A stretch of DNA of 64,000 bases from Strigops habroptila (lineage: Eukaryota; Chordata; Aves; Psittaciformes; Psittacidae), in assembly GCF_004027225.2 (NCBI RefSeq), contig NC_044283.2:248001-312000 (forward strand), in the 5' to 3' direction. The position numbers and the translations under genes were made by a program. Shown here piece after piece: positions 220 through 60,400 of this stretch. How positions within the stretch are numbered: position 1 is the stretch's first letter; every line of letters begins with the position of its first letter. The notes under the pieces were generated by a model that worked only from the letters and a program-made list of their open reading frames with translations, was not told the origin of the DNA and ran no database searches.

Positions 220-39035
<38,816 letters not shown>

Positions 39036-39634: not shown

Positions 39635-42600
39635 ATGGTGAGTGCGGGCGGGCCGCGCCTGGAGCATCCGGCCGCATCGGGCCGGGGGGGGCCCCGCGGG
39701 GGCCGGGGCGGGCGCGGGGGGGGCCGCCGGGGCCGCCGGTGACCGCTGCCGGTGCAGGTGCTGCTGCACGTCCTGTTCGAGCACGCGGCCGGGTACGCGC
39801 TGTTCGCCGTGCGGGAGGTGGAGGAGATCAGCCTGCTCCTGCCGCAGGTACCGGGCACAGCGGGAACCGGGGCGGGGGTGGAGGGGGTCAGCCTGCGCCT
39901 GCCGCAGGGGCCGGGCACAGCGGGAACCGGGGAGCGGGAACCGGGGCGGGGGGTGGAGGGGATCAGCCCGCTCCTGGCACAGGGGCCGGGGAGCGGGGTG
40001 GAGGGCGCGATCCGGGATCGGGGATCAGGTCCCGGGGTGGGGGATGATCCGGTCCCGGGGGAGCGGGTCTGAGGCGCTCGGGGGGGCCGGGGTTGGAATC
40101 CCGGGTCTCTCGCCCCGGAGCCGCCGCGCTCTGTGCCGGTGGCTGGGGGGGGGGTCCGCGGCGGGCGCTGACCGGGCCCCGCAGGTGGAGGAGAGCGTCC
40201 TGAGCCTCGGCAAGTTCCACAACGTGGTGAAGCTCGTCGCCTTCTCCCCGTTCAAGTCGGCGCAGAGCGCGCTGGAGAACATGAACGCCGTGTCCGAGGG
40301 TGAGCGCCGCGGGGACCCCCCTCCCGCCGCACCGGCGGTGCCCGGCCCCGCTGACCCCCCCTGCCCCCCCCCCCAGGGCTCCTCCACGAGGACCTGCGGC
40401 TGCTGTTGGAGACCTCGATGCCGGCCAAGAAGAAGAAGGCGCTGCTGGGGGTGGCGGACGCCAAGATCGGGGCGGCCATCCTGGAGGAGCTGGGTTATCA
40501 GTGCCAGACCGGCGGCGTGGTGGCCGAGCTGCTGCGCGGTGCGTGGGGCCGGCACCGGGGGGGGCACACACCGACCCCAGAGCCCGGCGGCACCGGTGAC
40601 ACCGTGTCCCCGCGCAGGGATCCGGCTGCACTTCCACGCGCTGGTGAAGGGCCTCACGGCCCAGTCGGCCTCCAAGGCGCAGCTGGGGCTGGGGCACAGC
40701 TACTCCCGCGCCAAGGTGAAGTTCAACGTGAACCGCGTGGACAACATGATCATCCAGTCCATCAGCCTGCTCGACCAGCTCGACAAGGACATCAACACCT
40801 TCTCCATGCGCGTGCGGTGAGCGGGGCCCTGCCGCGGTGCTGGGAGGGTGCTGGGGGGGTGGGTGCCCCTCCCCACGCTTACCACAGGCCGCTGCCCCTC
40901 CGGCTGCCTGTACAGGACGGGGAGGGAGAGCAGTGACCCGGGGCCGGCCGGTTGTGGCCACGGTGCCGCGGCCGGAGCGTGCCCGGGGGGGACAGAGGCA
41001 GCGAGGTGCTGAGCGGGGGCGCTGATGCTGTCCCCGTTGCTGTCCCCGCAGCGAGTGGTACGGGTACCACTTCCCTGAGCTCATCAAGATCGTCCCCGAG
41101 AACTCCATGTACTGCCGCGTGGCCAAGTTCATCGGGAACCGCCGGGAGCTGAGCGAGGAGAGCCTGGAGGGGCTGGAGGAGATCGTCATGGACGGCGCCA
41201 AGGCTCAGGCCATCCTGGATGCCTCCCGCTCCTCCATGGGTGAGCGCGGGGTGGCGGCTCCAGTGGGAGAGCTCCGGTGTCCCCGTTGGCGCCGCTGACC
41301 CCCCCGTGCCCCGGCAGGGATGGATATCTCCCCCCTGGACCTCATCAACATCGAGAGCTTCTCGAGCCGCGTGGTCTCGCTGTCCGAGTACCGCCGGGGG
41401 CTGCAGGAGTACCTGCGCTCCAAGATGAGCCAGGTGGCTCCCAGCCTGTCGGCGCTCATCGGGGAGGTGGTGAGTGTGACCCTGCACACGCGTGTGCACA
41501 CGTGTGCCCCCCGGCTCGGACGTGATGTCCCAGTGAATCTGTCAATCCCCTGAGCCGTGCTGCTGACACCTCGCTGCTGATCCGGGCCCGGGGGCTGTGT
41601 CCGGCCCCGCTCCGGGCCCCTGCGGCGCCGCAGCCCCAGTGCCCCCTCTCCCCGCTCAGGTGGGCGCGCGCCTCATCTCGCACGCCGGCAGCCTCACCAA
41701 CCTCGCCAAGTACCCGGCGTCCACCGTGCAGATCCTGGGCGCCGAGAAGGCGCTCTTCAGGTACCGCTGCGGGCGGCCGCCGTGATGGCGCCACCGGGCA
41801 CCGGCTGTGACGGGGCCCGGCCCCGGGTGAGCAGCCGGAGCCGGTGTCTGAGCGACCGCCGGGGGCGGGGGGGGGCGATGGGGGCAGCGTCCGTCCGTGC
41901 CCCCCCCGGTGGCGGGAGGGCGGCAGCTCCGGGCGCTGCTGACGGCCCCGCTGGTTGCAGGGCGCTGAAGACGCGCGGGAACACCCCCAAGTACGGGCTC
42001 ATCTTCCACTCCACGTTCATCGGGCGCGCGGCCGCCAAGAACAAGGGCCGCATCTCACGGTACCTGGCCAACAAGTGCACCCTGGCCTCGCGCATCGACT
42101 GCTTCTCAGGTGGGGCCGCGGCGCCGCCGCCTCTGCCGTGATGGCAACGTTTTTCGTCAGCAGCATCTCACCCCGTGAATGGTGACAGCTCTGGGGCTGA
42201 GCAGAGCGCGGCGGCCGTGGGGCGCACGGGGGGTGCTGGGGGGCACCGGGTGCTGACCCCCCCCGCCGCGTCCCACAGAGATCCCCACCAGCGTGTTCGG
42301 GGACAAGCTGCGGGAGCAGGTCGAGGAGCGTTTGGCCTTCTATGAGACCGGGGAGCCGCCGCGCAAGAACCTGGACGTCATGAAGGAGGCCGTGGTGGAG
42401 GTGAGGCCGGGGGGGGGCTGGTGGGGGGTCCCCCTGTTGGAGGTGATGTCAAACCCTGTCCTGACCCACCGTGGGGGGAAAAGACTGATTTAATGAGGCT
42501 GATCCGACAGCGGGGCTGAGCGCTGGGCTGGGGGCTGAGCGCTGCGCTGGGGGCTCATCCTGGCCTGACTCTCTTTTTTCCCCCCCGCAGGCGGGGGAGG

Positions 42601-44751: not shown

Positions 44752-47700
44752 CTATGCCCCATAGTGGGGGTGCAGGTTGTCAATCACAGACTTGACGAAG
44801 TCAGAAGTTGTGGAGTAACCGCCCAGGTCCCGCGTCCGAACCTGGAATCCAACAGGGGGGAGAGACGGGAAAGGCGGCGGTGAAGGGGGGAAGGGGGGTG
44901 GGAGGGGACGGGAGCGGCTGCCCTGAGCACCCGGCCCTGCCCGTGCCACAGAGCCAGGGGACAGGGCACGGGGATGGCATGGACACATGGACACAGCGAC
45001 AGAGACACAGGGACATGGACACAGACGCACGGACACAGGGACATGGGCTTCCGAGCGGGAGCAACTCCAGCCTCACTCCATGGCACTCACACCCCGACAC
45101 TCACTTTGCCGCCTTTGATCACCTTCTTCACCGCGTCCGAGATCAAGTTGGAGTGGAATTCCAGGCTGGGGAGAGGGGGGAGCTGGAGTCAGCCCCACTG
45201 CCCCACTGCCCCCCCACTGCAGCCCCACTGCCCCCCGGTACGCACTTGAGGTGCCGCAGCATGTTGGCGGCCGACAGCAGCATCGCGGTGGGGTTGGCGA
45301 TGTTCCTGCCCACGGCCTGGGCGAAGGGGTGCCGGGCGCCCTGCGGATGGACACCACGGTGAGGGACCCCCCTCAGCCCCCCCCCAGAGCCCCCCCGGCC
45401 CCGCAGCCCCTCACCATCTCGAACACGGCGTACTCGGCGCTGTAGCTCTCGCCGGGCACGACGCCGGCGCCCCCCACCAGCCCCGCTGCCAGGTTGTCCA
45501 CGATGTTGCCGTAGAGGTTGGGCATGACCAGGACGTCGAACTGGTACGGGTTCTGCACCAGCTGCGGGAGCAACGGCCATAGGGGGAGCTGTGGTGGGAT
45601 GGGGCGAGCTCCTGCCCCCAGCCCCTGCCCCACCGCCCCTGCCCCTCACCTGCATGCAGCAGTTGTCGATGATGATGGTGTCAAACTTGATCTTGGGGTA
45701 GAGCTCCGCCACCTCCCTGCAGCACTGCAGGAAGAGCCCATCGCCCAGCTTCCTGCCGGGGGACACCACAGGAGCTGCAGCACCCGCAGCACCCGCGCCC
45801 CGGCACCCGCAGCGCCAGGGGTGAAGCGGCCCCGGGGAGCAAGGGGGGCTGGTTTCCAGCCGGAACGCCGGAGCTGCTCCGGGCGCAGCTGCCACCACAG
45901 GCTCATGCTGGGCTCATGGCTAAGGCCGTTCCCAGGGGACGCAGGGCTGGGCGCCAGCACTCACATGATGTTGGCCTTGTGCACGGCCGTGACCTTGGAG
46001 CGCCCTTTCTTGGTGGCGTAGTCGAAGGCGAACTTGGCGATGCGCTGGGACTTGGCGCGGGTGATGATCTTCAGGCACTCGATGACGCCCCTCACGCTCT
46101 GCAGGGAGCGGAGGGGCAGCACGGAGCCCCCTCCGTGCCCCCCCAGCCTGTGCCAACCCCCTGCACCCACCCCCTGCACCCACACCCCTGCACCCACCCC
46201 CTGCACCCAGCCCCCTGCACCCACCCCCCTGCACCCACCCCCTGCACCCAGCCCCTGCACCCACCCCCTGCACCCACCCCCTGCACCCAGCCCCCTGCAC
46301 CCACCCCCCTGCACCCACCCCCTGCACCCACCCCCTGCACCCACCCTCTGCACCCACCCCCTGCACCCACCCCCTGCACCCAGCCCCTGCACCCAGCCCC
46401 TGCACCCAGCCCCCTGCACCCAGCCCCTGCACCCAGCCCCTGCACCCAGCCCCCTGCACCCACCCCCTGCACCCAGCCCCTGCACCCAGCCCCTGCACCC
46501 AGCCCCCTGCACCCACCCCCTGCACCCAGCCCCGCTGCTCCGGTGCATCCACATCCCGAGGTGCTCCCCTCACCCATGGGTGCCCCGGGAGCAGCGCTGC
46601 TGCCCGGCCCTGCCCCCCGGCGCTGGGGGGAGCGGGAGAACGTGGTCCCAGCAGTGAGGGAAGTCACCCACGGAACCAGGGAACGGGTTGGGGTGAAGGG
46701 ACCTTAAAGCTCCTCCAGCTCCAACCCCTGCCCCGGGCAGGGACACCTTCCACTAGAGCAGGTTGCTCCAAGCCCCTGTGTCCAACCTGGCCTTGAACAC
46801 TGCCAGGGATGGGGCAGCCGCAGCTGCTCTGGTGCCAGCGCCCCCCCCAGGGCAGCGGTGCCCCCCCGGAGCCCCGTGTGCTGGGGGTCCTCACCTCGTG
46901 CTCCAGGGCACTGTACTCGCCCTCCGTCTGCTCCCGGATGATGACCAGGTCCAGGTTGTTGTGGCGCGTCTGGTACCCAGAGAGGCTCTTCACGTGCACC
47001 ACGTTGGCAAAGAGGTCCAGCTTGCGCCTGGGGGAGCACGGCTTCCCTGGGTGACCCCCTCCCACCACCCCAGAGCGAGGAACTTCCCTGTATCCCGCCC
47101 AACTCTTCCCTCTGCCGGTTGGAAGCCCAAACTCCTCCTCCCATCCCTGCAGCCCTTGTCCAAAGCCCCTCTCCAGGTTTCCTGGAGCCCCTTTAGGCAC
47201 TGGAAGGCTGGATCTATCTATCTGTCCCTTCATCCATACACCCATCCATCCATCCACCCACCCATGCACCCCCCCACCCCCCTCCCTCCCCAGCAGGGTC
47301 ACACTGAGCTGAGGCAGTTCCTGCCCAGGCAATCCCCAGGGATTCTCCCTTCCCGGTAACACAGGATCTCCAGACTCGCTCCCTCAGCCCCAGCACCCAG
47401 CAGGATGGTGCTGCAGCCCCAGCGCTCACCTGAGCCTCATGTCGTAGGAGGCCAGCTCCCCCTTGTACTCCATGGGGGTGTGGATCTTCCCTGCGGGACA
47501 GGGGCAGTGAGAGCCCGCAGCGCAGCGGGGCCCGGGCGGTGCCTTCCCCGCGCCCTGACCGCGGCGATTCCCACCACCCAAAGCACCCAGCGCTGCCTGC
47601 CATGGGGCCACGCTCCCTGCGCACGCAGGGGCAGGGGGCTGGGGGCAGGGGGCTGGGGGCAGGCACGGTGCTGGGGGCAGGCAGGGTGCAGGGGGCAGGC

Positions 47701-50700
47701 AGGGTGCTGGGGGCAGGCAGGGTGCTGGGTGCAGGCAGGGTGCTGGGGGCAGGCAGGGTGCAGGGGGCAGGCAGGGTGCTGGGTGCAGGCAGGGTGCTGG
47801 GGGCAGGCAGGGTGCTGGGGGCAGGCAGGGTGCTGGGGGCAGGCAGGGGGCTGGGGGCAGGCACGGTGCTGGGGGCAGGCAGGGTGCTGGGGGCAGGCAG
47901 GGTGCTGGGGGCAGGCAGGGTGCTGGGGGCAGGCAGGGGGCAGGCAGGGTGCTGGGGGCAGGCAGGGTGCTGGGGGCAGGCAGGGTGCAGGGGGCAGGCA
48001 GGGTGCTGGGGGCAGGCAGGGTGCTGGGGGCAGGCAGGGTGCAGGGGGCAGGCAGGGTGCTGGGGGCAGGCAGGGTGCTGGGGGCAGGCAGGGTGCTGGG
48101 GGCAGGCAGGGGGCAGGCAGGGTGCTGGGGGCAGGCAGGGGGCTGGGGGCAGGCACGGTGCTGGGGGCAGGGTGCTGGGGGCGGGCAGGGGGCAGGCAGG
48201 GTGCTGGGGGCAGGCAGGGTGCTGGGGGCAGGCAGGGTGCTGGGGGCAGGCAGGGGGCAGGCAGGGGGCTGGGGGCAGGCAGGGTGCTGGGGGCAGGCAG
48301 GGGGCAGGCAGGGTGCTGGGTGCAGGCAGGGGGCTGGGGGCAGGCCGGGCCCCTCTGCCTGCCCTCACCTATGATGGCCACTTTACTCTCCTTCATGGAG
48401 TCGATGACCTCGTCCAGCTTCTCCTCCGAGGCCATGTTCTGCACCTCGCTCAGGTAGTGCTCGTCGAACACCACCGGCACGCTGGCGGCCTGCACAGGGG
48501 ACACGGGGACAGGAGGCACTGCCCATCCCGCAGGGACCAGGGGACCTGCACCCATGGCACGGGACCCGGCCGCTGGGGACGCGGGTGCTGGGGACCCAGG
48601 TGCTGGGACACGAAGCCCTGAACTGGCAACAGGCTCTGCGCTGGCGCAAGCGGGACGAGGAGCTTGAGACGCTGAGCCTGGAGCTCTGGGGCGCTTCGGG
48701 CCCACCTGAGCAGTGGGGCTGCGTCACCCCTAAGCCCAGGACTCCCCCTTCTTGCTGTAACAGGGGTAACTGGAGGCTCTGGGGCAGCAGCACAAGAGGG
48801 ACGTGGAGCTGCTGGAGCGAGGCCAGAGGAGGCCCCGGAGCTGCTGCGAGGGCTGGAGCAGCTCTGCTCTGGAGCCAGGCTGAGAGAGCTGGGCTGGGGC
48901 AGCCTGGAGAAGAGAAGGCTCCTGAAGGGGACACCTTAGAGCAGCTCCAGTGCCTAAAGGGGCTCCAGGAAACCTGGAGAGGGGCTTTGGACAAGGGATG
49001 GAGGGATGGGACAAGGGGAACGGCTTCACCGTGCCGGGGGACACGAGCTGCGGGCAGGGCTTTACCTTGAACACCTCCTTGACCGCGTGCATGAGCTCGG
49101 GGCCCACCCCGTCCCCCGGCAGCATCGTCACCTGGAACGTGCCCTCGGCCTTGGCATGCTCTGACTGCAGGGAGCAGAGCGGGGTCAGGCCCGCTGCTGC
49201 CCCAGCGCAGGGACGGGGGTCACCGAGGGCGCGGGGAGCACCTGCCCCACAGCCCGGCCCCCCCGCACAGACCCGCTGCAGCGCCAGCAGCGACCTTCAG
49301 CTCGAGCAGCTGAGCCCCGCGCGCGGCACCCCCCGTCCAACAGCACCACGAGAGCCCTCCCGCAGCATTCCGGGTGTCACCTGCCCCCGGCGAGCACAGC
49401 GCGTCCCCTCCGGCAGCCAAGAGCTCGGCTCTGCCCTATCGAGTGTCCCTCATTGCCTCCTCGTGTCACCGTGACCTCCTGAGCCCCCTGCGCTGTGGGG
49501 TCCCACGCTCTCACCCCACAGCTCCTGCTTTGTGTGGGTCTGGACACAAACCCAGCCCCTGAGACCATTCCCATCTCCGCACGGTGCTGCTGCCCCGCTG
49601 CAGCTGCCCCCCGCTTTTACACGGGCTCTCACTGACCCCCCCTCCTTCAGCCTGTAATTCCCAGCACGGAGCTGAGCTCTGACATGGGATTGCCCCGGCC
49701 CGGCCGCTGGGATTGGAGTCACAGGCAGAGACAAGCTCACCCAATGGTTTGACCTGACACCGAAAGGTGTGAACAAGCAGCACCTCAGTGACACAGGGCA
49801 CAGGGTGACGGTGAAGGGTGAGCAGGGAGGCAGGAGCGGAGCCCGGACCGCTCACTTTCAGTGCCTCGGGGTCGAGCTCGGGGGCAGAAAACCCCAAGCA
49901 CCACCAGCGATGGCCCCGCCAGGGGCAGCCGAGCACCCGCGGAGGGGACCTCCGAGCTCAAGGTCAAAAGAACAGCCCCAGCCTGAGCCCTTCCCTTGGG
50001 CCCCTTCGCTGTCACCGCAACCAGCAGCGCGGCCAGGCAGGAGCTGCCACCGCCTGCGACAGGCACCGGCACCGGCACCGCCGGGGCTGCTCCTGCTCCG
50101 CTGAGAACCACTCACCCCCCAGCCCCTGCTGCTGCCCACGGTGTGTGCCCCCCGCGTGTGCGGCACCGCCGGCCCCTGCCTCACCCACCCCTAAAGCTGC
50201 CGCCCCATCCCCTGCGCTGGCTGCGGCTCATCCCCTGCGCCGGCTGCGGCTCATCCCCTGCGCCGGCTGCGGCTCATTCCCTGCGCTGTTCCACGTTAAG
50301 CAGCCCGGGCAGCCCGGGCACGGTGGGGCCGGGCTGACACGCCGGGCTCAGCCGTCCCCCTCCCCGCCGCAGCCCCCCGGAGCGCTCCCGCCGCAGCCGC
50401 AGGAGCCCCGGGCCGGGGGAGCTGGGGAGGAGGGAACGCGGCTGGAGGGGAAGGCGCTGCCCCGGGCAGGGCCCCCCCGCCCCGCTCTCACCTTGGCCTG
50501 CGGGATCTGCTGCAGCGCGGGGGGCACGCGGAGGCCCCTCCACAGCCCGAGGCTCGGGGTGCGCAGGAGCCCCTGGGGGGAGGCAGAGCGGGGGTGAGAC
50601 ACCGCAGCCCCCCATGGCCCCCCATAGCCCCCCATGTGCCCCCCATGGCCCCCACCGCCCCCCGGCCCTCACCGCCCCCCGGCCCCGGCCCTCACCGCGG

Positions 50701-51441: not shown

Positions 51442-54400
51442 TCACTTCTTGAGGAGCTGGGCCCGGGCCCGGTTCAGCTTCTCGGCCACGGCAGCGTCGG
51501 TGCTGGCCGAGCACTTGGACAGGACAAAGTTCATCTCGGTCTCGTTCTTGTGCTCGATGGCGGCATCGGCCGCCTGGTCCAGGTCCCTGCGGGGAGAGGG
51601 GGACATGGGGTGTGGGGACAGCCCCATAGCCCCCCCATCCCCATGGGCTGGAGGCTCCAACCCCACACACCCCATGTGCTCTGGGAGGTCTCATCCACCC
51701 CTTGCTCCCCCTGCGGCTGCACGATCCCCATCCCCACTGCTCCAGTGGGTTCCAACCCTGCCCCACAGCCCCCAAGCTGCCCCCCAAGCACCCCACACCC
51801 TTGAGCAGACGCACCCCACGAGGACGAAGGCCCTGACGCGCTGCTCGGGGGGCACACGGGGCGCGTACTTCTTGGCCTCGTAGCGGTTGTGGTGCTTCAC
51901 CGCGATCTCCACGAAGGGCTGGAGAGGAGAGGACGGGGGTGATGGCCCCTCCAGCCCCACGGCACAGCCCCCCATGGGGCAGGGCTGGCCCCAGCAGCAG
52001 GAGCAGCTCTCACCAGGTACCCGATGGGCGACTTCTTGCTCTTGGAGAACTTCTCCATCTCCTCCCAGTCCCCGCGGTTGGCCAAGGCGCTGATCTTCAG
52101 CCACCAGTACCTGGGGACAGCGGTGAACCCAGCGCCCTGCACCCCCCCGGCCAGCCCCACAGCTCAGCTCCAGCCCCGCGGCTGCCCCCGGAGCCCCCCC
52201 AAGGCCCAACCTCTTGTCGGGGATCTTGAACTCGCGGTAGAGCTGCTCCGCGCGCTTGTGGTGACCGTCCAGGATGAGGTTGGAGACGGTGTCGTGCAGC
52301 GAGAGGTCGAGGTAGGGCTTGTCAAAGTCCTCCTGCAGGTGCCGCTGGAGCCGCAGCAGCTTGATCTGCTCCTCCGTGGCCTGGGCACCGAGCACCCGCT
52401 GGAGGCTCCCTGGCCCAGCTCTGCCCACGGGCTCTGCCCCAGGGCCCAGGGACCTGCGGTGCCCCACCAAGGGGGGGTGCCCCACCAAGGGGGGGGGGCC
52501 CAAAGGCAGCCCCGCGCCACCAGCAGCGCCCCAGGCCCCTCACCTTGGCTGCGAACTCGTTCTTGGCTTTGTAGAACTCGTCCAGCGCGTTCTGCAGGGC
52601 CCCCACGCGCCCCTCGATGCGCTGGGGACAGAGCACAGCGGCCCCTTCGCCCACCGCGGCACCCGCTGGGCATGGGGCAGCACCCACCGAGCCCCCCGGG
52701 GGGGGCCAGGGCTGACACAGGCGCAGGGGGAGGCTCTGGCTCTGCCACGCTGTGCTTGACCCCCCGAGACGGGCAGAGGCTGCCTAAGCGCGGGTGGGAT
52801 CCGGACACAGGGTGGGATGGGGTCTGCCAGCAGCGCCCCAAGGGGATGATGGCCACAGAGTGTGATGTGGGGAGCTCCAGAGCCCACCCTGAGCATGAGG
52901 AGGGTGGAACCCCCCGCTGTGCGCACCCAGCAGCCCTAAGGGATGAACCCCCCCACGCACCGCTCCCTGGGCACAGGGAGCCCCCCCTCCAGCCCCTCGT
53001 CCTCCCGGCACGGACCTTCTCGCTGTAGCTGGCATGGACGTGGAAGTTGCCGAGCTCCTGGTGGTTGTCGTCCTGGTTGTAGAGGTCCTTCAGCGTGTCC
53101 CGCTCCTGGTGCTTGCAGAACTGGGGGCAATGGGGGGTGAGGGCAGGTGGGGGGCCCGGGGGGGCCCACGGGCGGTGGCAGCCCCTCACCTGGCGGTACA
53201 GGCTCAGCGCCACCGGCTGGTTCTGCAGCGTCATGAAGAAGGTGCCGCGGTTCAGCTCGTTCTTGAGGTGCAGCACCACGGTGTAGACTGGGGGCAAGGC
53301 GGCGGGCAAGATGTGGGTCTGTGCCCCCATGTTGGGGGGGGCAGCCAGGGAACAGCCCCAGCAGCTCCTGCCACCCCACTGCACAAGGAGCAAAGCCACA
53401 AAGGGGGTCCCGCAGCCCCAAACACCCCCCGGCCCCCAAACACCCCCCCCCCAGCCACAACCCTCCCCCAGCCCCAAACCACACCCCAGCCCCCAAATCC
53501 CCCCCAACCATCAAATCCCCTCCAGACCCCAAACACCCCCCAGCCTCCAAATCCCTCCCAGCCTCCAAATCCAACCCTGGCCCCCAAACCCCCCCAGACC
53601 CCAAACCCCCTCCCCAGGCCCCAAATCATTCCCAGCCCCAAACCCCCCCCGGCTCCCAACTTCCCCCCCCAGCCCCCAAACCCACTCCTGGCTCCAGCCC
53701 CCCCGCGCTGCCCCCACCCAGGTCGGTGTCCCCGCTCTCGATGGCTTTGCTCAGCGCCAACTTGCTCCTCTTCATCTTGAGCAGCAGCGGGACCTGCTCC
53801 CCGGAGCGGGGCTCATACTCCAGCAGCTGCCGGGCACGGGGGGGGTGGGTCAGTGCCCGGCCCCCGCTGTGTGCCCCCCCCCCGGTGCCCCCCCCAGCCC
53901 AGCACCTTGATGGCCAGCTCCGTGCGGCCGCAGTCGTAGGCGCGGGCGGCGATCTCGGAGTAGGAGATGCCGGGGGTGTCGCCCAGCTTGTGGTTGATGG
54001 CCTGCGCCACCTCCTCGTCCGACTTGTCCTTCTGCTGCACCTGCGCGGGGGGAGCGGGACGGTCCCCAAGAGCCCCCCCCCCAGCGCGGAGCCCCCCCCC
54101 CGAGCCCCCATTTACCTTGTAGCAGGCCCAGTGTGCCAGGATGCGGCTCACGCCCTGGATCTCGGAGAGGCGCAGGTACTCGCACATCCTGATGGCCAGC
54201 GGGTAGAGCCGCCGCAGCACCAGCCTGGGGGGCACGGGGGGCCACGGGCACGGCCCATGGCGGGGTCTGCGGTGTGGGGCAGCTCCACCGGCCTCAGGGG
54301 GGGCCCAGAGTGCTCCGAGCCCCAAACCAAGGGGATGGGGACCAGGGGGATGGGGACTGTGGGGATGTGGTCCATGGGGATGGGGAACCACAGGGATGGA

Positions 54401-57400
54401 GACGATGGAGATGGGGAAACACAGGGATGGAGAACAAGGACATGGGGAACCACAGGGATGGAGAACATGGAGATGGGGAACCACAGGGATGGAGACCATG
54501 GAGATGGGGAACCACAGGGATGGAGACCATGGGGATGGGGAACCACAGGGATGGAGACCATGGGGATGGGGAACCACAGGGATGGAGACCATGGGGATGG
54601 GGAACCACAGGGATGGAGACCATGGAGATGGGGAACCACAGGGATGGAGACCATGGGCATGGGGAACCACAGGGATGGAGACCATGGAGATGGGGAACCA
54701 CAGGGATGGAGACCATGGAGATGGGGAACCACAGGGATGGAGACCATGGAGATGGGGAACCACAGGGGTGGAGACCATGGGGATGGGGAACCACAGGGAT
54801 GGAGACCATGGGCATGGGGAACCACAGGGATGGAGACCATGGAGATGGGGAACCACAGGGATGGAGACCATGGGGATGGGGAACCACAGGGATGGAGACC
54901 ATGGGGATGGGGAACCACAGGGATGGAGACCATGGGGATGGGGAACCACAGGGATGGAGACCATGGAGATGGGGAACCACAGGGATGGAGACCATGGAGA
55001 TGGGGAAACACAGGGATGGAGACCATGGGGACAGGGACCACAGGAATGGGATGGGAGCCATGGAGATGGGGACTATGGTGTGGAAAGACACTGCCTCAGC
55101 CCAGGGCCGCCATTCCCAGCTCCAGGCACCCTCACCTGTCCAGCAGCACCTCGATGGTGAGTCTCTTGTATCTGTGGGGATGGTCAAGGGATGTCCTGGA
55201 CCTCAAAACCCCCCTGAGTGCAGGCAGCACGTGCTGGGCACTGGCCTCCTGCTGCACAGCACCCCTGCACAGCACCCCTGCATGGCCCCCCGCATCCTGC
55301 ACCCCCCGGGCGATGCCACGCTCCTGCCCATGGAGGATACTGGGTGAAGGTGAGGGGGATGCCGATCTGGTAGTCCCGGATGGCGTTGAGCACCCGCAGG
55401 TCCTGGCACATGCGCACGAAGCTCTCCGGGGGGAACTTGTCGAGGAAGCACTTCCCGAAGGAGGCTGCCTGTGGGCACAGGGGTGAGGGGCTGGGGCCGG
55501 GCCGGCCATGACGTGGCCGCACGGGAGGGAGCCGGGGCCCCCAGCGCCCCACTCACCCTCAGCAGCGCCTTCTGGGTGTCGGGCTCGTGCTCGTGGCCCG
55601 CGGCCTCGATGCACTGGCTCACGGCCTCCGGGAGCAGCTTCTGCTCCTTGATCTCCCGCAGGTACTCGTCTGCCTTCTGGCTCTCCTTCTGCAGGGAACG
55701 GGAGCACTGGGACCCCTGCGGGGAGCCCTGCGGGGACCCCCGGGTCTCCCCTTCCCGTCACTGCGGGGCTGGGACACCCCAACCTCCTGGGGGCAGCGGG
55801 ACGTACCTCGTACTCCTTCTGCGCCTCCAGCAGGAGAGCCCCCGGCGCCATGGAGGCGATCTTGAAGATCTCCTGGCTGGCCTCTGCAGAGACAGGGGGT
55901 GAAAGCATCACAGAACCATGGAATCCCCATGGGCTGGGGCTGGAGGGGACCCTCAGGCTCAGCTCACCTGGGATCTCCTGCAGGAACTCGTGGGAGCTGC
56001 GGGACAAGATGCGGACCCCGTCCAGCTCGGGCACCAGGTAGGAGTCCTCATCCAGGACAAACCTGAGCTCCCCGCTAAGGGCTTGCGGGAAGGAAGTGGC
56101 TCTGTGCCCCTCTGCCCCATGTACAGCCATAGAACCCCAGCCTGCTTTGGGGTGAAGGGACCTTAAAGCTCCTCCAGCTCCAACCCCTGCCCCGGGCAGG
56201 GACACCTTCCACTAGAGCAGGTTGCTCCAAGCCCCTGTGTCCAACCTGGCCTTGAACACTGCCAGGGATGGGGCAGCCACAGCTTCTCTGGGCACCCTGT
56301 GCCAGCGCCTCAGCACCCTCACAGGGAAGGGCTTCTGCCTCAGAGCTCATCTCAATCTCCCCTCTGGCAGGTTAAAGCCATTCCCCTTGGCCTGTCCCTC
56401 CATCCCTTGCCCAAAGCCCCTCTCCAGGTTTCCTGGAGCCCCTTCAGGCCCTGGCGCTGCTCTGAGGGCTCTCAGAGCCAAGGGGAGCAGGACCCCCTCA
56501 GCAGGAGGTTTGGACGAGGGGCACAGGGCTTGGGGACACACAGGAGCGGGTTTGCTGCTGCCCAGGGCCGGGCAGGGGCGGCTGTGGCAGAACTGCAGAC
56601 ACGGGAACAAGATCAACCTCCTCTGGCTGCCCGGGGTGTACGGACACCGAGGGGACACCCGCGTCCCCCGCAGAGCTGCTGCTGACCCAAAGAGCACCCG
56701 TAGAGACCCGCAGGCTGTGCCGGCCCTCGGCCGCGCCGCCGGCCCCTCTTCCCAAAGGATACTGGATGCCCTCGCTGGAGCTCCCGGCCACCAGGAGCTG
56801 CCGGTCCCAGGCCACCACCACAGCGCGCTGCCGGCTGCGGGGCCGCATGCACCTGGGGGGACCCACAGCTCAACCCCTGCAGCCCCAGCCCCGGCGGGGG
56901 GCACCGGGGGGGCTCCCCTGTCCCGGGGGGGGCTGTGGGGTGGGCGCAGGGCTCAGCGCACCCTAAGGGTGGGCTCGGCCATGGGTCAGCACTCACCAAA
57001 CCATCTGCTTGGGTGGGGAGCGGATGCTGCAGTGGAACTCACAGAGCTTCTCCTAGGAACAGAGCCACGGGATGAGCCGGGGGGGAAACAGGGGGAATGG
57101 GGGCGTAAAATCGGGTGAAGAACAAGAGGTGGATCAGGATCATAAACAGGAACGTGGATGGGTGCGAGGGCAACCCACAGCCCGGAGCCCATGGGACCCC
57201 AAAGGAGCCGGTGTGGACCCCCCCAGTGCAGGATGCGCCTGCCCAGCACCCCAACGCCCCACCCCGGGGAGGTGAGGCTGAGTTAAACCAGTGTTTCACT
57301 GAACAGAGCCACAGACAGGGCTACGGGGGCTCCTGAACTGCGCTTTCACTGGGGACAGAGCCCACAACTCTCAAGCTAAGGAGCTGCACCGGGAGAACCA

Positions 57401-60400
57401 GGTTCTCCTCTCAGAGCAGGGGGGGCTCCTCCTGTTGGTAAGGCCCCAGAAACAGGGAAACGGTGAAAGCAGCAGCTCGAGCAGCCTCTTGGGGTTGTAA
57501 ATGAACCCGAACAGGCACATGTTGTTAACTGGAAACGCTGAACACACCCCAGTGGCCCTAATGGATGGATTCCCATAAAGGGATGAAATGAGGGGGGGGA
57601 TTTCTCCTCAAAACGACCACCACAACCCCCAGAGGCCCCTCCTCGCATTCACAGTGCCTGTGGCACAGCCTGAGCGGCCCGTGGCCAAGCAGGAACGGGA
57701 ATCGGGGGCACTCCATGGAGTTCTGATCAATATGTGCCTAATACAGGCACATCAGCTGCGAACTGCCTCTTCTGGGGGGGGGGTGACATCCCCCTGCCCC
57801 CGGCGCGCGACAAAGTCCTGCTGGTTTCTAACCCGTCCTTCTGGGTGCAGAGGTTATGTCCCGACATCAGTGACAGAGGGAGGGATGTGCCAGCCACCCC
57901 CATCCAGATGTGTGCTCACCTGGAGCCAGGCCACCCCCATCCAGATGTGTGCTCACCTTGAGTGATGCCACCCCCATCCAGATGTGTGCCCATTGGGAGC
58001 CAGACCACCCCCACCCAGATGTGTGCTCACCTTGAGTGACGCCAGCCCCATCCAGATGTGTGCCCATTGGGAGCCAGGCGACCCCCATCCAGATGTGTGC
58101 TCACCTTGAGTGACGCCACCCCCATCCAGATGTGTGCCCATTGGGAGCCAGACCACCCCCACCCAGATGTGTGCTCACCTTGAGTGACGCCAGCCCCATC
58201 CAGATGTGTGCCCATTGGGAGCCAGGCGACCCCCACCCAGATGTGTGCTCACCTTGAGTGACGCCAGCCCCATCCAGATGTAGCCGGTGTCGGTGAGGAG
58301 CGCCAGGCACCGGTGGGTGAAGGACACAGCCATCTGCACGTAGGCACCGGCTGAGGGGCTCAGGCCAGGGGGGGTCTGCAAGGGAACGGGGGGGGTTAAC
58401 CTGGGGACACCCTCTGGGGTGCGGGGTGCTGAGGCTGGTCACTGGGGTGCCCCTTCCCGCCCTGCTCAAGCCAGGTCAGGATGGGGCCGATGCCCCCGGC
58501 TGCTCCCTGCAGCACCGCCGTGGGGCACTCACCACCACGGAGCAGGAGGTGTTGTCCAGGAGGTAGAGGTCCTGCCCCACCGCCAGCAGGACGATGGTGA
58601 CCCTGTCCTGGGACAGCACAGCCCAGCACGACGGCGGCTTCTGCAGCCCTGCAGGCACCAGCGTCAGCGCTGCGCCCCCTGCGCAGGGGCAGGAGCACGG
58701 GGGCACACGGGCAGGGACGCACCGGGCACCTCGGGCATCCTGCGCAGCTTCAGGTCCTCGATGTTGGTGGCCAGGGAGAAGCGGTGGCTGCCGGTCAGGA
58801 TGGCCACGCCGGTGCCGAACTCGCTGTGGAACACCTTCGCCTCCAGCACGTGGTTCTGCAGCACCTCCTGTGCCAGCGCAGAGACACGGGGCTCAGCACC
58901 GCGGCGCTGGGCAAGGAACCACCCCCGAGGGGCAAACCCAGCGCTGCTGCTCCGTGTCCCAGCTCCACCAGGGACAAGGGGATCGTGGTGGCCCCAGGGA
59001 CCATGGCACGGATGCAGCTCATCCCTGCTGCAGGGACAGCCCCAGGCTCCCCCTGCGCTGCCCCAGCCCTGGGCACCTCCTGCCCGTCCTGCCCCGCTCA
59101 CGTTGCCCATGCTGAAGTGGCGCTTGAACTCGCAGAAGAGGTTGTAGATGAGCACGGTGCCGTCCTCCTGGATGCACAGCAGGTCCTCGCTGGCCGTCCA
59201 GCCCAGCTGCACCAGCTGCCCGCTCTTCCACTGCGGGCACGACACGCGTGAGCACAGCACGGAGCCACGCATGAAGCCAACAGCCATGGGGGGGGCCCGG
59301 AGCTCTGACACCCCTTGGCTCTGTGGGGCCCTGTGCTCACAGCAGCTTCCCCTGCCCCTCCAGTCCTCCCTGCCCTGAGCCCACCCCAGCCCCGGGCACT
59401 GGGGAAGGGAGGATGCTCCGATGCCATGGCTCGTATCCCCACCACATCCTCCCCTCCCAAGCCTGGCAGCCTCCTTCCCCCCCCGGCTCCCTCCTGGCGC
59501 ACCCCACCACGTCTGAAAGCTTCTGCACAGCTTGTGGTGGGTACAGGAGCCACAAGGAGCCACCAGCCCAGGGTGCTTCGGGTGCTGGGTTCACTGGCAG
59601 CATCCAGCTGCCCCACGGGGAGAGCAGAGGAGCTGCCCAAGAGCACACAGAGCGGCACGGGGAGAGGCGACAGCGATTCCCCTGCGACACCCAGCCCATA
59701 ACTCAGCCCGGGGCCCTTCGGTGCCACCACCCGGCCCTTCCTGGGCAGGGGCTGCAGCCTCTGGGGGGGGCTGCCCCACGCTCCCGGCACATCGCAGGCC
59801 CCCGGCAGCCCAGCCGCGGCGCAGCTCACCGGGATGCTGGCCAGGAGCAGCCCCGAGGCCGAGTAGATCTCGAGCAGCGGGCGGGCGCCCGGGGACTTCT
59901 CCTTCCGAGCGTGGTTCTTGAGCAGAGCTGGGGGGGGGCGGGACGGGCGCTGTGAGCTGCAGCCCCCCCGCTGCTGGGGGCCAGGGCACACCCGGCCCCA
60001 TGGCCCAGCCCTACCTATGGGCCCCCCGTACGGGGCAGCTGCCACCATGCAGTCCCGCAGGTCCTCCTTCAGGTTCCACCCCATGGTGTAGAGCTCGAAC
60101 TTCCTGCAGGCACGGGGCGATGGATGGAGGGAAGGATGGAGGGATGGACGAAGGGATGGGGGGATGAAGGAATGGGGGGATGAAGGGATGGGGGGATGAA
60201 GGGATGGGGGGATGAAGGGATGGGGGGATGAAGGGATGGGGGGATGAAGGGATGGATGAAGGGAAGGATGGAGGGATGGATGGAGGGAGCGATGGAGGGA
60301 TGGGCGGCACACCGAGGGATGGGGGGCGAGGGATGGATGACCAGCCCCGAGACCCAGCCCCAGCAGCCACGGGGCCACCCCAGCACCCCCAAGTCCCACG

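Follow-up and report, generated by a model that had tools for sequence, protein, structure and literature searches.

The window analysed in this study is a stretch of 64,000 nucleotides (C7:248001-312000) in a genome of 1.149 Gb and 89 contigs, and it carries models of DCTN1 (24 exons), NOP56 (8), IDH3B (9), VPS16 (19) and an N-acetyltransferase (2). This final set of 62 exons and 57 introns was obtained with an ab initio predictor of our own, based on general splice and amino-acid frequencies, which proposed 66 exons; 12 of these were removed (9 judged spurious by eye and 3 re-entered with corrected borders) and others were added by eye. The gene families are backed by Pfam, where the IDH3B piece, at 26.5 bits, stays below the cut-off of 27. 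Below the family level the names DCTN1, NOP56, IDH3B and N-acetyltransferase are our presumed assignments, and VPS16 is also named by the PDB.

The contig (C7, 70,131,234 bp) may be avian chromosome 4, and a dot-chromosome fusion is conceivable. Its GC content starts at 0.43-0.53 over the initial 40 kb and is then 0.60-0.72 in stretches sampled between 40 and 322 kb (200001-248000 and 312001-320000 apart), about 0.55 at 400 and 500 kb (2-kb samples), 0.41-0.47 in the samples at 0.75, 1 and 2 Mb and 0.32-0.47 when those at 5 and 35 Mb are included. As far as it was sampled, C7:40001-322000 is a GC-rich and repeat-rich block near the contig start, with ordinary GC reached by 0.75 Mb.

A tandem array at the edge of VPS16 exon 7, the seventh exon of the gene model used here, lies within this block and close to one end of the large contig (Table 1). 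The joined modelled VPS16 exons match Vps16_N at 3.4e-80 (Pfam), and the only PDB match at E up to 0.001, Vps16 chain 8dit_B (1.8e-19), aligns without a gap across the exon 7/8 junction. Splicing from the donor that starts at plus-strand position 58252 yields the conserved ...LASLK|EKLCEF... protein and a frame open through the next five modelled exons. The sequence-only reading had placed the authentic donor at this position, and reading frame and protein alignments support the exon-proximal site as the one probably used. Being conserved coding sequence, exon 7 gave rise to the array and did not arise from it.

Table 1. Positions in the window of the VPS16 array, its units and donors, and the NOP56 exon-edge copies.
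Feature	Position	Strand	Description
VPS16 exon 7	58253..58375	-	Last 29 nt (58253-58281) are the array source; reading frame, splice borders
Authentic donor 9-mer AAG|GTGAGC	58247..58255	-	First intron base 58252
Intron 7	57053..58252	-	1200 nt; ends ...TGTTCCTAG before exon 8 (56997-57052)
Tandem array	57893..58281	-	37-nt units, 29 exon-derived and 8 intron-derived nt; Tandem Repeats Finder, unit identities
Unit 0 (exon unit, A form)	58245-58281	-	Last 29 nt of exon 7 (58253-58281) and GTGAGCAC
B unit 1	58208..58244	-	Donor destroyed; reads CCA|ATGGGC where A units read AAG|GTGAGC
A unit 2	58171..58207	-	37/37 against exon unit; decoy +74, first base 58178
A unit 4	58097..58133	-	36/37 against exon unit; decoy +148, first base 58104
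A unit 6	58023..58059	-	37/37 against exon unit; decoy +222, first base 58030
A unit 8	57949..57985	-	35/37 against exon unit; decoy +296, first base 57956
B units 3, 5, 7	58134-58170, 58060-58096, 57986-58022	-	Donor destroyed, CCA|ATGGGC
Terminal unit 9	57912..57948	-	B-like left part; intact CAG|GTGAGC at +333, first base 57919
NOP56 exon 2 (39758-39847) and two edge copies	39758..39976	+	Tandem Repeats Finder 60-bp period at 39811-39932

Tandem Repeats Finder reported a period of 74 with 5.3 copies and 94% matches at 57893-58281, and a period of 37 with 10.6 copies at 57889-58281. The array had been described as five copies of a 74-bp unit; that period was recovered, and the true unit proved to be half as long, with a second, diverged form standing between the copies first seen. 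Read on the minus strand, the 37-nt unit is ACATCTGGATGGGGCTGGCGTCACTCAAG|GTGAGCAC, the final 29 nt of exon 7 followed by 8 nt of intron, and the borders of the units match that between exon and intron. There are about ten such units, in which an A form, its donor intact, alternates with a diverged B form, and this alternation accounts for the 74-bp period. The proposed birth of the array from a splice donor is borne out, as the unit reaches across the exon/intron border and its exonic part is conserved coding sequence.

The units are arranged in 74-bp dimers of A and B, with two blocks of 148 bp. Identity from dimer to dimer is 69-73/74 and the two 148-bp blocks are identical at 146/148 positions. 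Between A units and B units 1, 3, 5 and 7 there are 9-11 differences; the donor loss in these four B units is a change of G+1 to A. At column 15 of the unit, exon unit 0 and two intronic units, 2 and 6, are alone in having C; the remaining eight, counting partial unit 10, have G. A 601-bp query covering the array region found a single match, itself, in the 1.149-Gb genome, and as far as this search can see the array is local.

The 9-mer AAG|GTGAGC is kept in four intronic copies, at +74, +148, +222 and +296, as the sequence-only reading had it, and a fifth decoy, CAG|GTGAGC, is present at +333. All five lead to premature stops. In the shifted frame the first decoy's own GGTGAG supplies a TGA at insert nt 75-77, which any transcript spliced at +148 or farther would meet. 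Splicing at +74 gives a frameshift and a stop 385 nt past the junction; this stop lies in the fifth of the modelled exons downstream, and seven more modelled exons come after it. A stop with further exons downstream usually directs a transcript to nonsense-mediated decay (NMD), and NMD is therefore expected for the +74 product. The suggestion that an insert of three 74-bp units would preserve the frame was rejected, given the TGA inside the insert; +333, also a multiple of three, is likewise unproductive.

Since the A-type decoys have 27-29 of their 29 upstream nucleotides in common with the exon, nothing local appears to explain why the first donor should win over them. Differing RNA accessibility found no clear support, as local folding did not separate the authentic site from the decoys: the chance that its whole 9-mer is unpaired was the lowest or second lowest of the six donors, and its mean per-base openness was the second or third highest. 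No G-quadruplex motif (four G-runs of at least 3, loops of 1-12) was found in the array, and three were found in intron 7 near its far end. Work on DOK7 indicates that the choice among competing donors can depend on SR-protein sites and on distance (PMC5585400). Distance from the upstream acceptor and the order of transcription may be offered as guesses for the preference in VPS16.

The edges of all modelled exons were compared with the nearest 1,500 nt of adjoining intron, giving 114 exon/intron sides (57 donor and 57 acceptor), at a threshold of at least 30 bits. Copies were found on 2/57 donor sides and 0/57 acceptor sides, and on none of 342 dinucleotide-shuffled sides, for which the maximum was 28.2 bits. 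VPS16 exon 7 accounted for matches of 58.0, 58.0, 50.1 and 42.1 bits, each of 29 nt, and for two 19-nt matches of 30.2 bits. The exon-edge match in VPS16 is thus far beyond chance, and with the repeat-finder result and the unit identities it confirms that the array is real.

The other donor side belongs to NOP56 exon 2, a weaker second case in the same window. Its two copies, at intron positions 30-60 and 99-129, are 31-nt matches with 28/31 identities and 38.2 bits each; the first ends at the exon edge with GG replacing the donor GT and the second stops 6 nt short. A NOP5NT match bridges the NOP56 exon 2/3 junction. When the first 500 nt of each intron were scored for GT sites equal to or better than its own donor, 47/57 introns had none, and VPS16 intron 7 came second of the 57 with five. 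The top position was taken by a VPS16 intron with 12 such sites, the U12-like donor of which scores badly on the matrix. Over the same 500 nt, VPS16 intron 7 was the only one of the 57 with decoys repeating its own donor 9-mer (4 copies).

With a stricter ab initio set, 1/84 sides in the window matched, through a lysine-rich NOP56 stretch away from the exon edge; VPS16 exon 7 and NOP56 exon 2 were both absent from this set (42 window exons), which is therefore insensitive. The same stricter predictor, which missed both true window cases, gave 0/102 matching sides for 51 predicted exons in C7:1-200000, and this figure is weak evidence of rarity.

Several other features of the window were observed. 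The VPS16 intron at 56063-56762 (minus strand) has U12-type features: its donor is GTATCCTTT, the sole match to R-TATCCTT when both strands of the window are searched, and CCCTTAGC stands shortly upstream of the acceptor AG. The U12-type call follows the usual consensus, and 56130-56480, inside the same intron, has the appearance of a CR1 LINE 3' end. The DCTN1 intron at 38082-38704 (plus strand) holds an imperfect array of about 21 bp that is rich in donor-like sites, of which CAG|GTAAGG and CAG|GTGAGG score at or above the authentic donor; it was rejected as an exon-born array, since no match to the exon scored 30 bits or more. Long minisatellites lie at 54325-55072 (31-bp, 24 copies), 26271-27035 (14/35-bp) and 47644-48349 (18-bp, 40 copies), within the VPS16, DCTN1 and IDH3B models, respectively; with the closest 1,500 nt of intron compared at 30 bits, none of them is matched by an adjacent exon.

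The VPS16 array fits avian exon stuttering, in which a lateral part of an exon is copied in tandem, together with its splice site, into the adjacent intron, so that potential alternative transcripts are created (Hron et al., 2026; PMC12954441). In that study the exonic part measures 20-187 nt (median 36), the median number of copies is 4, the source lies within 1 base of the exon border in more than 90% of cases, and intron length variation between individuals is a feature of the phenomenon (PMC12954441). Of 236 stuttering introns in chicken, 190 are on dot chromosomes and 46 elsewhere, 36 being on macrochromosomes (PMC12954441). The published criterion asks for a match no shorter than 20 nt that scores 42.1 bits or more (PMC12954441), a level which the four 29-nt matches of VPS16 reach or exceed, the fourth (42.1 bits) lying exactly at the threshold; NOP56, at 38.2 bits, falls below it. 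For all four VPS16 matches the distance of the source from the exon border is 0, donor included, and here too an exon edge and its donor are tandem-copied into the adjacent intron in GC-rich bird sequence. Unlike most published cases, the array is on a 70-Mb contig and not on a dot chromosome, a location that is strongly preferred in chicken but not required, and it is resolved into a regular 37/74/148-bp order with five decoy donors.

The main text of PMC12954441 does not name VPS16, NOP56 or DCTN1, and its supplementary gene list may include VPS16. No report of the VPS16 array appeared in titles or abstract openings among the matches listed. On its sequence features the array would fit as a new case of this known phenomenon.

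A partial parallel is found in intron 18 of human ABCA7, where the donor of exon 18 belongs to a VNTR of 25-bp units (PMC5954066). As in VPS16, a repeat lies at an exon donor with the donor GT inside it, and retention of one unit causes a frameshift and a premature termination codon (PTC), as is predicted for the VPS16 +74 decoy. One-unit retention in ABCA7 amounts to 2 +/- 1% of transcripts, and the PTC isoforms increase with cycloheximide (PMC5954066). The ABCA7 unit differs in beginning at the donor GT, and the passages of that paper at hand report no exon-derived copy; the length-dependent effect described there is skipping of exon 19. Introns can also be gained when exonic sequence is duplicated in tandem (Lehmann et al., 2010; PMC2891723); there too a local duplicate of exon sequence is spliced away, although in those cases a new intron arises whereas in VPS16 an existing intron grows.

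Taken together, the observations are best explained by a passive, mutation-driven exon-stuttering array that leaves the protein untouched and whose decoys are used at most rarely, with their products going to NMD; we put the probability of this reading at roughly 0.83. The position on a 70.13-Mb contig, the absence of a local reason for the first donor to win and the folding result count against it. Judging from the unit anatomy, the array would have begun with a 37-bp tandem duplication across the VPS16 exon 7/intron 7 border (29 nt of exon and GTGAGCAC). The second half-unit would then have diverged, its donor being lost in four of five copies, and the 74-bp A/B pair would have been amplified recently, the last event being presumably the 148-bp duplication. 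This two-step age structure follows from the close agreement of intronic A units with the exon unit (35-37/37) as against the 9-11 differences between A and B. Splicing at the exon-proximal donor would remove the extra copies, all of which are intronic for that reason, and the array may be regarded mainly as a tolerated outcome of tandem-repeat mutation at a chromosome end rich in GC. The column 15 pattern implies exchange, in one direction or the other, or repeat mutation after seeding, and the proposal that homogenisation couples exon and intron is thus partly supported. Each transcript from the five intact decoys should undergo NMD, and the 2 +/- 1% retention in ABCA7 leads us to expect low use; most likely, by this analogy, the VPS16 decoys cause at most traces of unproductive splicing.

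Alternatively, cells might switch to the decoys and so lower VPS16 output through NMD. The five intact decoys, four of them with the authentic 9-mer and all with premature stops, would suit such a role, as would the standing of intron 7 as the only one of 57 modelled introns with an own-donor 9-mer decoy in its first 500 nt. However, copies with 0-2 changes in 37 from the exon unit should have intact donors even in the absence of selection, which would thus not be detectable on the decoys, the copies being probably just young. In addition, the ABCA7 analogue is a minor isoform unaltered by repeat length (PMC5954066), and a search confined to folding and G-quadruplex motifs found no regulatory element, so that regulated switching is quite improbable. 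Of the earlier suggestion that donor choice could regulate or poison the mRNA, the poisoning part therefore holds, since all five decoys stop, and the regulatory part is unsupported, decoy conservation being explained by the youth of the copies. A bolder version, in which decoys divert a measurable share of pre-mRNA to NMD, array length sets the dose and exchange at the exon edge writes variants into the protein, appears very improbable; if it were true, each extra 74-bp unit would bring a decoy donor identical over the 9-mer.

It is also conceivable that selection favoured donor loss in the B units as removal of harmful decoys, the recent A copies being still unpurged. Where unit 9 departs from B unit 5, four of the five changes are in the 7-nt donor core (Fisher p = 0.0025). 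A unit 4 differs from B unit 5 at 9 positions, which is the sum of the 4 that separate it from unit 9 and the 5 that separate unit 9 from B unit 5. Yet this is a single comparison picked after the sequences had been inspected, unit 9 is equally explicable as a recombinant that took its left part from a B unit and its right part from an A unit, and four A decoys are still intact; selective loss is accordingly doubtful. That the assembler made or miscounted the copies is extremely improbable: GC-rich repeats are hard to assemble, but the array is just 389 bp long, carries distinguishing variants in a 70.13-Mb contig, has a single match in the genome and leaves the exon frame intact.

The probably passive exon-stuttering array adds to the known phenomenon a case near the end of a large contig, matching the published macrochromosome minority. 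Regulation by donor choice is a possible and testable idea that is unsupported at present. The VPS16 array offers a natural experiment on how the spliceosome picks one site, with five donors sharing the 9-mer and 27-29/29 upstream bases and a close sixth beside them, and since none of the five decoys is productive by sequence, what such arrays cost would be directly measurable.
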